This document shows, piece by piece, positions 22,240 through 26,253 of a stretch of DNA of 33,318 bases. The stretch comes from Leeuwenhoekiella sp. (GTDB lineage: Bacteria; Bacteroidota; Bacteroidia; Flavobacteriales; Flavobacteriaceae): contig DRGP01000092.1 of the NCBI GenBank assembly GCA_011050015.1, positions 1-33,318 of the forward strand. The letters run 5' to 3'. The position numbers and the translations under genes are program-made. Every line of letters begins with the position of its first letter. Within the stretch, counting starts at the first letter, position 1. Below the pieces are notes generated by a model that saw nothing but the letters and a program-made list of their open reading frames with translations, made no database searches and was not told where the DNA came from.

Positions 22240-23703
22240 ATGAACAATACCGAAATACGCAACCTACAACCGAAAGAAGTCTGGAATAAATTTGCCGATC
22301 TCAACGCTGTTCCACGTGCTTCAAAAAATGAAAGGCAGGTCATTGCTTTTATGAAAGATTTTGGCGAGAAGCTCCATCTGGACACCCATGTAGATGCCGT
22401 GGGTAACGTTATTATAAAAAAACCGGCCACAAAAGGCATGGAAAACCGCAAACCCATTGTCATGCAATCGCATCTCGATATGGTGCATCAGAAAAACAAC
22501 GATACGCAGTTTGATTTTTCCACAGAGGGCATAGCGATGAAGATAGAAGGGGACTGGGTAAAGGCCAAAGGAACAACCCTGGGGGCAGACAATGGCCTGG
22601 GGGTTGCCACGATCATGGCGATCCTGGAAAGTGATACGATTGCTCATCCCACCCTTGAAGCGCTTTTTACGATTGATGAAGAAACCGGAATGACCGGGGC
22701 AAAAGGCCTAAAAAGCGGACTTTTAAACGGCGATATCCTGCTGAACCTCGATACCGAAGAAGACGATGAAATAGGGGTAGGTTGTGCTGGGGGAGTTGAT
22801 ATCACGGCAAAAAGAAACTACACCGAAGAAAAAGCAGCAGAAAATAAAACCGGATACACACTTCAATTAAATGGCTTGACCGGAGGCCACTCTGGCATGG
22901 AAATTCATAAAGGGCTGGGCAATGCCAATAAGCTGATGAACCGTCTCTTGGTAAATGCCTACGAAGATTACGGTTTGCAAATAGCCAGAGTGGAAGGCGG
23001 CGGACTTCGGAATGCGATTCCGCGGGAAAGTGAAGCACTTGTGGTGGTAGATAGCGCAAAAAACGAAGCTTTTGAGAAACATATTAAACTATTGGCCGAA
23101 GCGATCAAAACCGAATATAAAAAGACCGATCCCAATCTTAAAATTGCTTGTATTCCTGCTGAAACTCCCGAAAAAGTAATGAACGCGGAAGTGCAAAAGC
23201 AATTTGTACGCGCGATTCAAGCAGCTTGGAATGGCGTTTTTCGCATGAGCCCAGATATTGCTGATCTTGTGGAAACCTCAAACAATGTAGCGCGGATAGA
23301 TGTTAAAAACGGCAACATTGAAGTACTTTGCCTTACGCGATCATCCGTACAATCTTCACGGGAAGATCTTGCAAAAACCTTACAGTCTGCCTTTGAACTT
23401 ATGGGCTGCGACGTTTCCTTTTCAGGGGAATATCCTGGCTGGAAACCCAATATGGACAGCGCGATCTTAAAAGTTCTTGTCGAAAAATATAAAAAGCTCA
23501 ACAATGAAGATCCAGATGTCGCCGCCTGCCACGCTGGATTAGAATGCGGCATCTTGGGCCAAAACTATCCAGAAATGGACATGATTTCCTTTGGCCCCAC
23601 CATCCGCGGAGCGCATTCTCCAGATGAACGTGCCAGTATTTCTTCGCTTCAAAAATTCTGGAAGTTTGTACAGGAGATTTTGGGGGATATTCCTGTTGCT
23701 TAG
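22240..23703 (+). CDS. pepD: aminoacyl-histidine dipeptidase (PepD-like, M20)
   Basis: Cytosolic dinuclear-zinc dipeptidase of 487 aa, acting on carnosine-like and other Xaa-His dipeptides. Motifs in order: MQSHLDMVHQK (first metal His/Asp, about 77), LGADNGLGVA (bridging Asp, about 112), IDEETGMTGAKGL (catalytic Glu pair, about 143), NLDTEEDDEIGVGCAGG (about 168), GLTGGHSGMEIHKGLGNAN (dimer/lid-domain histidine, about 210), and C-terminal GPTIRGAHSPDERASI (last metal His, about 455). Length and order match E. coli PepD (485 aa). Divergent from the PCD gene, with its own promoter. Confidence 0.93.
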   Translation: MNNTEIRNLQPKEVWNKFADLNAVPRASKNERQVIAFMKDFGEKLHLDTHVDAVGNVIIKKPATKGMENRKPIVMQSHLDMVHQKNNDTQFDFSTEGIAMKIEGDWVKAKGTTLGADNGLGVATIMAILESDTIAHPTLEALFTIDEETGMTGAKGLKSGLLNGDILLNLDTEEDDEIGVGCAGGVDITAKRNYTEEKAAENKTGYTLQLNGLTGGHSGMEIHKGLGNANKLMNRLLVNAYEDYGLQIARVEGGGLRNAIPRESEALVVVDSAKNEAFEKHIKLLAEAIKTEYKKTDPNLKIACIPAETPEKVMNAEVQKQFVRAIQAAWNGVFRMSPDIADLVETSNNVARIDVKNGNIEVLCLTRSSVQSSREDLAKTLQSAFELMGCDVSFSGEYPGWKPNMDSAILKVLVEKYKKLNNEDPDVAACHAGLECGILGQNYPEMDMISFGPTIRGAHSPDERASISSLQKFWKFVQEILGDIPVA

Positions 23704-23794
23704 TAGGCGGTTTTTAGTTTTTAGTAAAAGTATATTGTATACTGTAGATTGTATTTTAAAAAAATGACGACTAAAAAGTGAAGAATAATTTGAG

Positions 23795-23838
23795 AACCTG
23801 CAAGGTGTCGCCGAGGATAGGAGGGCTCCTTGTAGGTT
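23795..23838. repeat. REP-like imperfect palindrome
   Basis: AACCTGCAAGG (23795-23805) and CCTTGTAGGTT (23828-23838) pair over 11 positions with one G-T wobble, enclosing a 22-nt GC-richer loop. Inside, AGGAG-GG-CTCCT (23819-23830) forms a competing hairpin. From memory, AACCTGCAAGG...CCTTG(C/T)AGGTT palindromes recur in flavobacterial intergenic regions. It sits between the dipeptidase stop and the orphan gene. Confidence 0.6.
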
Positions 23839-23886
23839 TAAACATATATTGATGTATTTATAGTATTGATCATTTAAATTAAAATA

Positions 23887-24702
23887 ATGACATTTAGCGA
23901 ATTTTTAAACTGTGATTTAGAAAATAGTGACATGATTATTGATTACTATTTAGATTTTTTAAAAGATTTTTCGTCAAAAAATTTCCCCTTCGAACAAGGT
24001 TTACAATTAAAAGGTTCTGCTGAGAAATTTATTAATACAATCGATAAAATCGCTTATGTTAAAAAAGAAGATGTAAGCCAATATTTAGATGAAGTAGATA
24101 GTTTTTCCAATAAATTAAAAAATTTTAGACTTGGCAAAGACTATTCTCAATTTATGAGGCTTCTAATTCCCACTTACAAAACTAGTATTACCAGAGTTCA
24201 AAGTAATTTCGAAAATATATATTCATCCTCAATAAAATTTATAAATAAGCACAACGAATATAAATTTTATAGAAATCAAGATATTGATTTAAATGGATTT
24301 TACAACACAAAAAACGCCAATAAAGAAAAAGTTAAGGAATTAATATCCGAAGCGATTAACTTAATTAACAAAGAACATTCAATAACTGCTGATAGTAAAA
24401 AACAACTTATTAAGCATTTAGAATTGTCATTAACGAACTTAGATAATAATAATCCTGATTGGACTAAAGTAATTGGGCGGGTAAAAGAAATTGTTATTAT
24501 AATTAGTGCTTTAACTACTATAATTGGTAATACTTCTTCGCTTTTTGAAGCTAAAGAGAGATTAGAACAAACCTCAACTATAATACAACAAACCTCTGTG
24601 AATATAAATCATACTACAATTAATAAGACCTTTCTACAGCAAAATATTGAACAATTGAATAATGTGAATAATATTTTAATAGGAAATTCAGATAAAAACT
24701 AA
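23887..24702 (+). CDS. hypothetical protein, AT-rich orphan gene
   Basis: I do not recognise this 271-aa protein. It is Asn/Lys/Ile-rich and probably mostly helical. An N-terminal part (about 1-115) rich in Phe, Asp and Lys is followed by a middle segment with NKHNEYKFYRNQD, then a helical stretch (KEKVKELISEAINLINKEH... KKQLIKHLELSLTNL) and one hydrophobic stretch, IVIIISALTTIIG (about 200-212), perhaps membrane-interacting or a buried helix. The C-terminus is Gln/Asn/Thr-rich (STIIQQTSVNINHTTIN). No signal peptide or catalytic motif is visible. Three 60-nt lines inside the gene hold 14, 18 and 20 G+C, against 23 and 30 in lines counted from the flanking genes, suggesting recent acquisition. 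No partner gene is adjacent in an operon. Confidence 0.7.
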   Translation: MTFSEFLNCDLENSDMIIDYYLDFLKDFSSKNFPFEQGLQLKGSAEKFINTIDKIAYVKKEDVSQYLDEVDSFSNKLKNFRLGKDYSQFMRLLIPTYKTSITRVQSNFENIYSSSIKFINKHNEYKFYRNQDIDLNGFYNTKNANKEKVKELISEAINLINKEHSITADSKKQLIKHLELSLTNLDNNNPDWTKVIGRVKEIVIIISALTTIIGNTSSLFEAKERLEQTSTIIQQTSVNINHTTINKTFLQQNIEQLNNVNNILIGNSDKN

Positions 24703-24903
24703 AAATAAGATCTTAATATTAAAAGAAAAGTTGGTGAGCTGATGACCAAAGCTAAGTTTTAAAATTACTCTATTTGAACTATTCTGATATTTAAAATTTA
24801 GCATCTAACCAGATTGCAATTAAAGAACTTAATTAGTCTATATCTTACCATAAATATTTCGATTTCCGATCAATAACGCAAAAACTCAGTAACCACAATC
24901 CCC

Positions 24904-26253
24904 ATGGAAGAAAACTTTGATAATTTTAAAATATCCAAACAATTGCATTACGCGATTGAAGATATGGGTTTTAAAAAACCGACACAGATTCAGCAGGAAG
25001 CATTTTCGGTAATACGCTCGGGTAGGGACGTGGTGGGCATCGCCCAGACCGGTACCGGAAAGACCTTTGCTTATATGCTGCCTTTGCTTCAGGGCTTGTC
25101 GTTTTCAAAACAGGACAACCCACGTATTTTGATCTTGGTTCCTACCCGCGAACTCGTGCTTCAGTTAGTCGATAATATCACTGCATATACCAAATATATG
25201 AGCGTAAGGGTAAGCGGCGTTTTTGGGGGAGTCAACATTAATAGGCAGAAGGAGGCCGTTGCTCAGGGACTTGATATTTTAGTAGGGACACCTGGCCGGT
25301 TGAACGACCTGATATTGAGCCGCACGGTACAGTTAAAGTCCATTAAACATCTGGTGATTGATGAAGTAGATGTCATGCTAGATCTGGGTTTTAGACATCA
25401 GCTTACCAATATTCTGGATATGTTACCTAAAAAACGGCAGAATATATTGTTTTCGGCCACGATGACCGATGAGGTTTCACTACTTATGGATGCCTTCTTT
25501 ATTGCTCCAGAACGCATTACGGTAGCTATGAGTGGAACACCGCTTGAAAATATAGAACAACAGGCCTACGGGGTGCCTAATTTTTATACCAAGGCCAATC
25601 TGATCGCTCATTTGCTGGATACTGAAAAAAACTTTACTAAAGTACTTGTTTTCTGCTCCAATAAAAAAAGTGTTGAACGCTTACATAAAGCCTTAGCTGC
25701 AAAGAATGTGCAACGGCTGGACGTTATTCACTCTAACAAGACACAGAATTACAGGATACAGGCCATAAAATATTTTGAAGAAAACAAAACAAGATTACTC
25801 ATCGCGACCGATGTCATGGCCCGTGGGGTAGACCTGGATCAAGTGAGCCATGTCATCAACTTTGACGTACCCAGTTTTCCTGAAAATTATATGCACCGTA
25901 TTGGCCGTACGGGAAGGGCCGAAAAACAAGGGCATTCTTTGCTGTTCTTCACTCCAAAAGAAGAAGAGGCCAAACAAGCCATTGAGCAATTAATGGATAC
26001 CCCGCTGCATTTAAATGAACTTCCGGAAGCGGTAGAGATTTCAAAGCGCCTGACTCCAGAAGAAGAGCCAGAAGTGAAGGAAATTTATAACCCTAACAAG
26101 ACAGACAACATAAAGGGAGCGAGTTTTCATGAGAAAAAAGAAAAAAATCAGAAAATAAACCAAGGTGGATCCTACAGAAGAGAAATAGCTAAAAAATATA
26201 AAAAGCCAAAAACCCGTGGAGATAAAAATTATAACCGTCGCAATAAGAAATAA
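24904..26253 (+). CDS. DEAD-box-type RNA helicase (DEVD variant)
   Basis: ATP-dependent RNA helicase of 449 aa. Q motif FKKPTQIQQEAF (about 24), motif I AQTGTGKT (about 47), Ia PTREL (about 86), Ib VGTPGR (about 130), motif II VIDEVDVMLDLGF (about 153, DEVD in place of DEAD), motif III SAT (about 186), then RecA2 motifs TDVMARGVDLDQVSHVINFD (IV/V, about 303) and HRIGRTGRAE (VI, about 328). It ends in a basic, low-complexity tail (KKYKKPKTRGDKNYNRRNKK) typical of RNA-binding extensions in RhlE/CshA-like proteins. Likely roles are ribosome assembly or mRNA turnover at low temperature. Start ATG 24904 fits; 201 bp of noncoding DNA precede it. Confidence 0.92.
   Translation: MEENFDNFKISKQLHYAIEDMGFKKPTQIQQEAFSVIRSGRDVVGIAQTGTGKTFAYMLPLLQGLSFSKQDNPRILILVPTRELVLQLVDNITAYTKYMSVRVSGVFGGVNINRQKEAVAQGLDILVGTPGRLNDLILSRTVQLKSIKHLVIDEVDVMLDLGFRHQLTNILDMLPKKRQNILFSATMTDEVSLLMDAFFIAPERITVAMSGTPLENIEQQAYGVPNFYTKANLIAHLLDTEKNFTKVLVFCSNKKSVERLHKALAAKNVQRLDVIHSNKTQNYRIQAIKYFEENKTRLLIATDVMARGVDLDQVSHVINFDVPSFPENYMHRIGRTGRAEKQGHSLLFFTPKEEEAKQAIEQLMDTPLHLNELPEAVEISKRLTPEEEPEVKEIYNPNKTDNIKGASFHEKKEKNQKINQGGSYRREIAKKYKKPKTRGDKNYNRRNKK

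Follow-up and report, generated by a model that had tools for sequence, protein, structure and literature searches.

The question raised by this locus is how an AT-rich gene of no known family came to lie between two housekeeping genes, and what its product might do. The window, that is the whole 33,318-nucleotide stretch of Leeuwenhoekiella sp. DNA analysed here, belongs to a 3.69-Mb draft genome (81.6% complete, 261 contigs). The orphan gene occupies positions 23887–24702 of the forward strand, begins with ATG and comprises 271 codons. As the initial annotation had described, it is enclosed by core genes, a PepD-type dipeptidase on the left (22240–23703) and a DEAD-box RNA helicase on the right (24904–26253), and all three are transcribed from the same strand. 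The contrast in base composition perceived at the outset is borne out by comparison with the other window genes checked, which have a GC content of 0.37–0.46 and a GC3 of 0.30–0.56 as opposed to 0.252 and 0.199 in the orphan gene. A dip in GC surrounds the gene from approximately 23750 to 24900 in a window with an overall GC content of 41%.

The orphan gene and its protein

Asn (11.8%) and Lys (10.0%) are abundant in the predicted product, whose structure prediction is all-helical, with a low-confidence tail rich in Asn, Gln and Thr and moderate confidence overall (model pLDDT 68 and 67). This agrees with the first description of an AT-rich, Asn/Lys-rich helical 271-aa ORF with one hydrophobic stretch. 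That stretch is located towards the C-terminus, where the top 19-residue hydropathy window spans residues 195–213 with a mean of 1.85, and is borderline as a transmembrane helix. Hydropathy and alignment with homologues delimit it to residues 195–220 (VIGRVKEIVIIISALTTIIGNTSSLF, codons 24469–24546 on the forward strand), which together with the subsequent AKE-LEQT helix form the best conserved block of the alignment. The hydrophobic helix is Gly/Ala-rich and reads TIIVLGALGGFIGGISPLF in the homologues.

Searches against Pfam, NCBIfam, PHROGs and PADLOC returned no significant family match; a hit to DruC (E 0.06) was not significant, and no known defence family in PADLOC was matched. Comparison with the PDB by sequence and by fold gave no match of note, the fold test being weak because of the model pLDDT of 68. 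A signal peptide is not evident in the protein, nor does it belong to an enzyme family. Weak matches to query residues 16–79 in proteins of about 270 aa were rejected as chance; these look like universal-stress-type core proteins. That the ORF is a real protein-coding gene under selection and did not arise by chance is shown by four full-length homologues at 40–42% identity and a dN/dS well below 1.

Distribution and horizontal transfer

No homologue of the orphan was found in the 12 other genomes of the genus, and among 400 family genomes only three, its own included, have full-length matches. When a collection covering 84,980 species was scanned, the four full-length homologues emerged, with the above identity extending over the whole length: these are encoded by Mesonia algae (L060), an Algibacter MAG (L061), Marixanthotalea marina (L062) and an uncultured Cellulophaga (L063). 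None turned up in another 394 genomes taken from the class, or in the phage, plasmid and viral collections searched. The PepD protein of the window is 65–69% identical to the PepD of the four homologue-bearing genomes.

The Algibacter and Cellulophaga copies of the orphan share 92% protein and 93% DNA identity, whereas the PepD proteins of the same two genomes are only 67% identical. This disparity between genera provides good support for horizontal movement of the family, and the substitution rates show that purifying selection acts on the gene, with a dN of 0.036, a dS of 0.258 and a dN/dS of about 0.14 for this pair and a dN/dS of about 0.07 for the Algibacter–Marixanthotalea pair. The near-identical pair, the absence from all congeners and the scatter of homologues over variable loci support the view that the window orphan is a foreign, acquired, single-gene accessory module. 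The acquisition put forward in the initial annotation is thereby upheld, the gene being neither a resident of this junction in most relatives (it is absent from the 12 congeners) nor a member of a known housekeeping or other family.

Neighbourhoods and borders of the homologues

The four homologues sit in different neighbourhoods and two of them, in what is a small sample, lie beside known or candidate defence genes, which is in keeping with the early expectation that relatives would be scattered among variable loci or defence islands. The Algibacter homologue is situated 3' of a HATPase protein and a receiver-like protein that matches PDC-M43A (E 2e-15); the M43-type HATPase had no close relative in 300 other genomes, which gave merely weak kinase-domain matches. 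In Marixanthotalea the homologue lies between a gene for a 418-aa protein and an operon encoding a cytosine methylase, a GHKL ATPase, a Z1 protein and a DUF4420 protein. The Z1 protein matches MzaC (E 3.5e-26) and its partners match MzaB and MzaD weakly (1e-3). Genes like those of the Mza system and of the PDC-M43 candidate defence system are directly adjacent to these two homologues, but a PADLOC match of the orphan protein to a component of one or the other is lacking, and in both loci an attC-like site separates the homologue from the system. The gene preceding the Cellulophaga homologue encodes a coiled-coil protein of 296 aa that has hydrophobic segments. The Mesonia homologue is preceded by a short XRE-type regulator, and some 40 bp downstream of the homologue the frame of an IS110-type transposase enters. 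Elsewhere in the Mesonia locus (L060:7353-9237) a sigma factor gene adjoins that of a 365-aa protein with no Pfam match, an arrangement that we take to recall TnpB/Cas12f–sigma pairs.

DNA similarity among the homologues extends from about 20–50 bases 5' of the start codon, where the preceding hairpin ends, to just past the stop codon. Complementary 7-base boxes border the homologues exactly: GTTAGCT...AGCTAAC in Algibacter and Marixanthotalea, GTTAGCT...AGCTTAC in Cellulophaga, with a single change in the 3' box, and GTTGGGT...ACCCAAC in Mesonia. In 4/4 loci the boxes enclose the orphan homologue and no other gene, R' lying upstream of it and R'' immediately following its stop codon. The integron consensus is GTTRRRY/RYYYAAC, which the Mesonia pair GTTGGGT/ACCCAAC fits.

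Three of the four loci additionally lie beside attC-like hairpins. A hairpin of about 130 bases that begins and ends in the boxes is found upstream of the gene in Algibacter, Marixanthotalea and Cellulophaga, and recurs at three more places in the Marixanthotalea locus, one of them directly 3' of the gene. Sites thereby flank the Marixanthotalea homologue on both sides; the downstream match is weak in Algibacter (21.8 bits) and missing in Cellulophaga, and the Mesonia homologue has no site on either side. The bottom strand of these hairpins folds better than the top strand and, among the six seed hairpins, 15 of 28 pairs show a compensatory change. In their folding and stem changes the hairpins resemble attC sites. 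It is proposed that integron-type arrays of Flavobacteriaceae carry the orphan family as a gene cassette, a proposal that has an even chance of being right when the effector role discussed below is included. Such a carrier was not visible in the sequence on which the initial annotation was based.

Integron-like arrays and their recombinases

A covariance model built from six sites identified 67 attC-like sites in genome G001, 49 in Mesonia, 42 in G040, 40 in Marixanthotalea, 32 in G012, eight in the nearest relative of the window genome (G008), three in the window genome itself and none in G020 and G064. Within six array stretches, 49/49 sites are oriented as the cassette genes and 37/49 start at most 30 bp from the stop codon of an ORF, where 6% would be expected. 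In these 49 sites 87% of cells are paired and covariation is 0.44 compared to 0.06–0.10 in slid controls; the pairing counts lean towards the structure model because the sites were found with it, while the orientation and stop-codon statistics are unaffected.

A tyrosine recombinase of approximately 340–415 aa, read in the cassette direction, adjoins the start of the arrays, as at G833:C33:130907-131719, which is followed by sites from 132200 to 173871, and at G001:C2:831684-832493, with sites from 814507 to 830155, each at one array end. Counting as recombinase loci those with a TIGR02249 stretch of at least 90 bits (n=15), an attC-like site lies within 10 kb in 12. The array recombinases score 183–207 bits against the TIGR02249 integron integrase model, short of its cut-off of 265 and above genomic XerD (147 bits), and score slightly higher (209–231 bits) with NF040815 (XerA/integron integrase). 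Their TIGR02249 match is broken at profile positions of about 180–240, where the G012 protein has some 18 residues. Because the match skips about 60 profile positions, the array recombinases probably lack the IntI-specific additional domain (Messier and Roy 2001, as cited in PMC9668308). By their profile scores they are classed as integrase-like (IntI/XerA-like) and not as proven IntI. A C-terminal recombinase fragment at the end of contig C1 of the window genome may be of the same kind.

Large integron-like arrays with co-oriented IntI/XerA-like recombinases were observed in G001, G012, G040, G050 and G831–G834 (loci L127–L132) and appear to be widespread in Flavobacteriaceae. A small cysteine-rich, zinc-ribbon-like protein adjoins the recombinase or array in four places (L127:2117-2503, L132:6337-6726, L136:2487-2837 and L135:11419-11766), and possibly belongs to the platform or serves as a conserved anchor. 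The recombinase of Cellulophaga G834 has a CBASS pair (L132:3283-5015) directly downstream as first cassette, consisting of a cyclase (E 2.5e-121) and an S_4TM (4TM) effector (E 4.3e-62), and the array of G012 contains a type II restriction enzyme along with two methylases acting on DNA. This defence content parallels the role of Vibrio integrons as defence stores (PMC12409362).

The window copy and its route of arrival

Most genes of the window have collinear counterparts in the nearest relative, G008. Comparison of the window with the corresponding G008 locus (L034) by blastn and at the protein level delimits a segment at 23841–24889 that is without counterpart, and in place of which G008 has an unrelated AT-rich segment of 875 bp. 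This contains another AT-rich orphan of 162 aa, which is interrupted (L034:10156-10840). Protein comparison detected no homology between the two orphans, the G008 orphan has no relatives among 251 genomes, and an attC-like search without filters around it returned nothing above noise. In the remaining congeners the pepD and helicase genes are on separate contigs, or more than 100 kb apart when on one contig, and because they lie apart the junction is taken as the product of a rearrangement in the lineage of the window genome. The empty junction that had been predicted for close relatives was not found, since in G008 it is occupied and in the other congeners it does not exist; it is a variable site rather than an empty one.

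On the left side, homology with G008 stops at the hairpin AACCTGCAAGG...CCTTGTAGGTTT (23795–23841, forward strand), which precedes both the window orphan and the G008 orphan. As CCTGCAAGG...CCTTGYAGG this hairpin is a dispersed repeat, with five copies in the window genome, three in G008 and none in the 11 other congeners. The other readable copies adjoin ordinary genes and no AT-rich orphan of such kind. An att site was considered for the hairpin and rejected, as it is a dispersed repeat present only in these two genomes, and it is left as an unexplained border.

A 22-nt leader, ATTGATCATTTAAATTAAAATA (23865–23886, forward strand), lines up with the cassette leader of the homologues, which is composed of GTTAGCT or GTTGGGT and then TTTAATTA..AAAA; its box is not conserved, and a leader match in AT-rich sequence is weak on its own. 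At the position of the 3' box (24703–24709, forward strand) the window reads AAATAAG, as opposed to AGCTAAC or ACCCAAC right after the stop codon in the homologues, and this box is lost or was never present. A search without filters found no attC-like site above noise within 23600–25000, the best match of 11 bits lying inside the orphan gene. With neither an attC-like site nor an intact box, the window copy is evidently not a functional cassette at present, and its place between the two core genes is not part of any array.

The recombination sites of the window copy either decayed or never existed, and its arrival as a cassette is considered somewhat more probable than the contrary. Either the window copy entered a secondary site and subsequently lost its attC by decay, or it came by another route. 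A cassette inserted at an attG site should retain its attC. Like the integron cassettes integrated at attG sites (Loot 2024, as cited in PMC12444791), the window copy would be a single cassette at a non-array chromosomal site, but unlike these it has no recognisable attC. The missing attC is consistent with arrival by phage, plasmid, IS or hairpin-repeat-mediated insertion instead of an integron, as are the left border, formed by a dispersed hairpin confined to the window genome and G008, and the different orphan beside the same hairpin in G008. The absence of homologues from the phage, plasmid and viral collections and the ordinary surroundings of the other readable hairpin copies argue against such a route, which is the less likely of the two though a serious contender.

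Proposed function

The locus is best read as an integron-type cassette that has become stranded and encodes a single-gene effector of abortive infection, a reading to which we assign a probability of about 0.5. The anti-phage function, in an undescribed family, is suggested by genomic context and protein anatomy and is about an even bet, and the membrane mechanism is a more tentative guess from the anatomy. In this mechanism the N-terminal helical domain (residues 1–126) would sense an infection cue or a partner, and the C-terminal helical domain with its conserved, small-residue-rich hydrophobic helix (195–220) would act on the membrane, so that growth would stop in a one-component form of abortive infection.

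Toxin–antitoxin genes are common cassettes of large integrons. Sedentary chromosomal integrons of Vibrio contain anti-phage single-gene cassettes (Darracq 2025; Getz 2025, both as cited in PMC12409362), and Vibrio cassettes of unknown function often prove to be anti-phage (PMC12409362; PMC12444791); in V. cholerae, 20% of the cassettes without predicted function are reported to encode anti-phage systems (PMC12444791). The orphan family resembles these cassettes in that its genes are small, belong to no known family, stand singly in their cassettes, have few homologues and occur in arrays with other defence systems. It differs from them in its Flavobacteriaceae host and in that its anti-phage role is deduced from context and anatomy, and the window copy differs in its location outside an array and its lack of an attC.

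The defence reading is weakened by the lack of a match to any defence family, by the fact that just two of the four homologues lie beside defence-like genes, and by the many non-defence functions that cassettes carry; the borderline hydrophobic stretch and recombinase scores under the IntI cut-off also count against the overall reading. The gene could instead belong to mobile cassettes and have an accessory role in stress, at the surface or in metabolism, its defence neighbours being bystanders in the array, and many array cassette ORFs, judged by eye, do resemble short lipoproteins or secreted proteins and not defence genes. This is rather unlikely, however, as the two homologues in question directly adjoin defence-like operons and the orphan protein has neither an evident signal peptide nor an enzyme family. 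Less likely still is a toxin/antitoxin-type gene that stabilises the array and whose partner was lost from the window copy: such cassettes are frequent, as noted above, and a small XRE-type regulator precedes the Mesonia copy, but that gene lies outside the 5' box and no partner co-travels, the borders enclosing one gene in all four homologues. That a core or lineage gene drifted in place to low GC agrees with the intact and conserved reading frame but is already contradicted by its absence from 12/12 congeners, the occupation of this junction by an unrelated gene in G008, and the unrelated positions of homologues transferred between genera.

Significance

Integrons have already been reported from Bacteroidota in general (PMC8618304), and their presence in Bacteroidota is not in itself new; in the library searched, no literature on flavobacterial integrons was found. 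With rather less confidence than the reading of the orphan itself, it may be suggested that Flavobacteriaceae widely carry integron-like arrays run by an IntI/XerA-like recombinase lacking the IntI-specific domain, and that these arrays store anti-phage systems (CBASS, restriction and undescribed single-gene effectors) that leak into core regions as stranded solo genes. Through the present analysis a family that had gone unrecognised joins the candidate anti-phage genes, and a likely vehicle can be named for it. Should the arrays be integrons whose integrase has diverged, defence libraries of the Vibrio type would extend to a major marine bacterial group, and many AT-rich orphans of flavobacteria would become testable as stranded cassettes.
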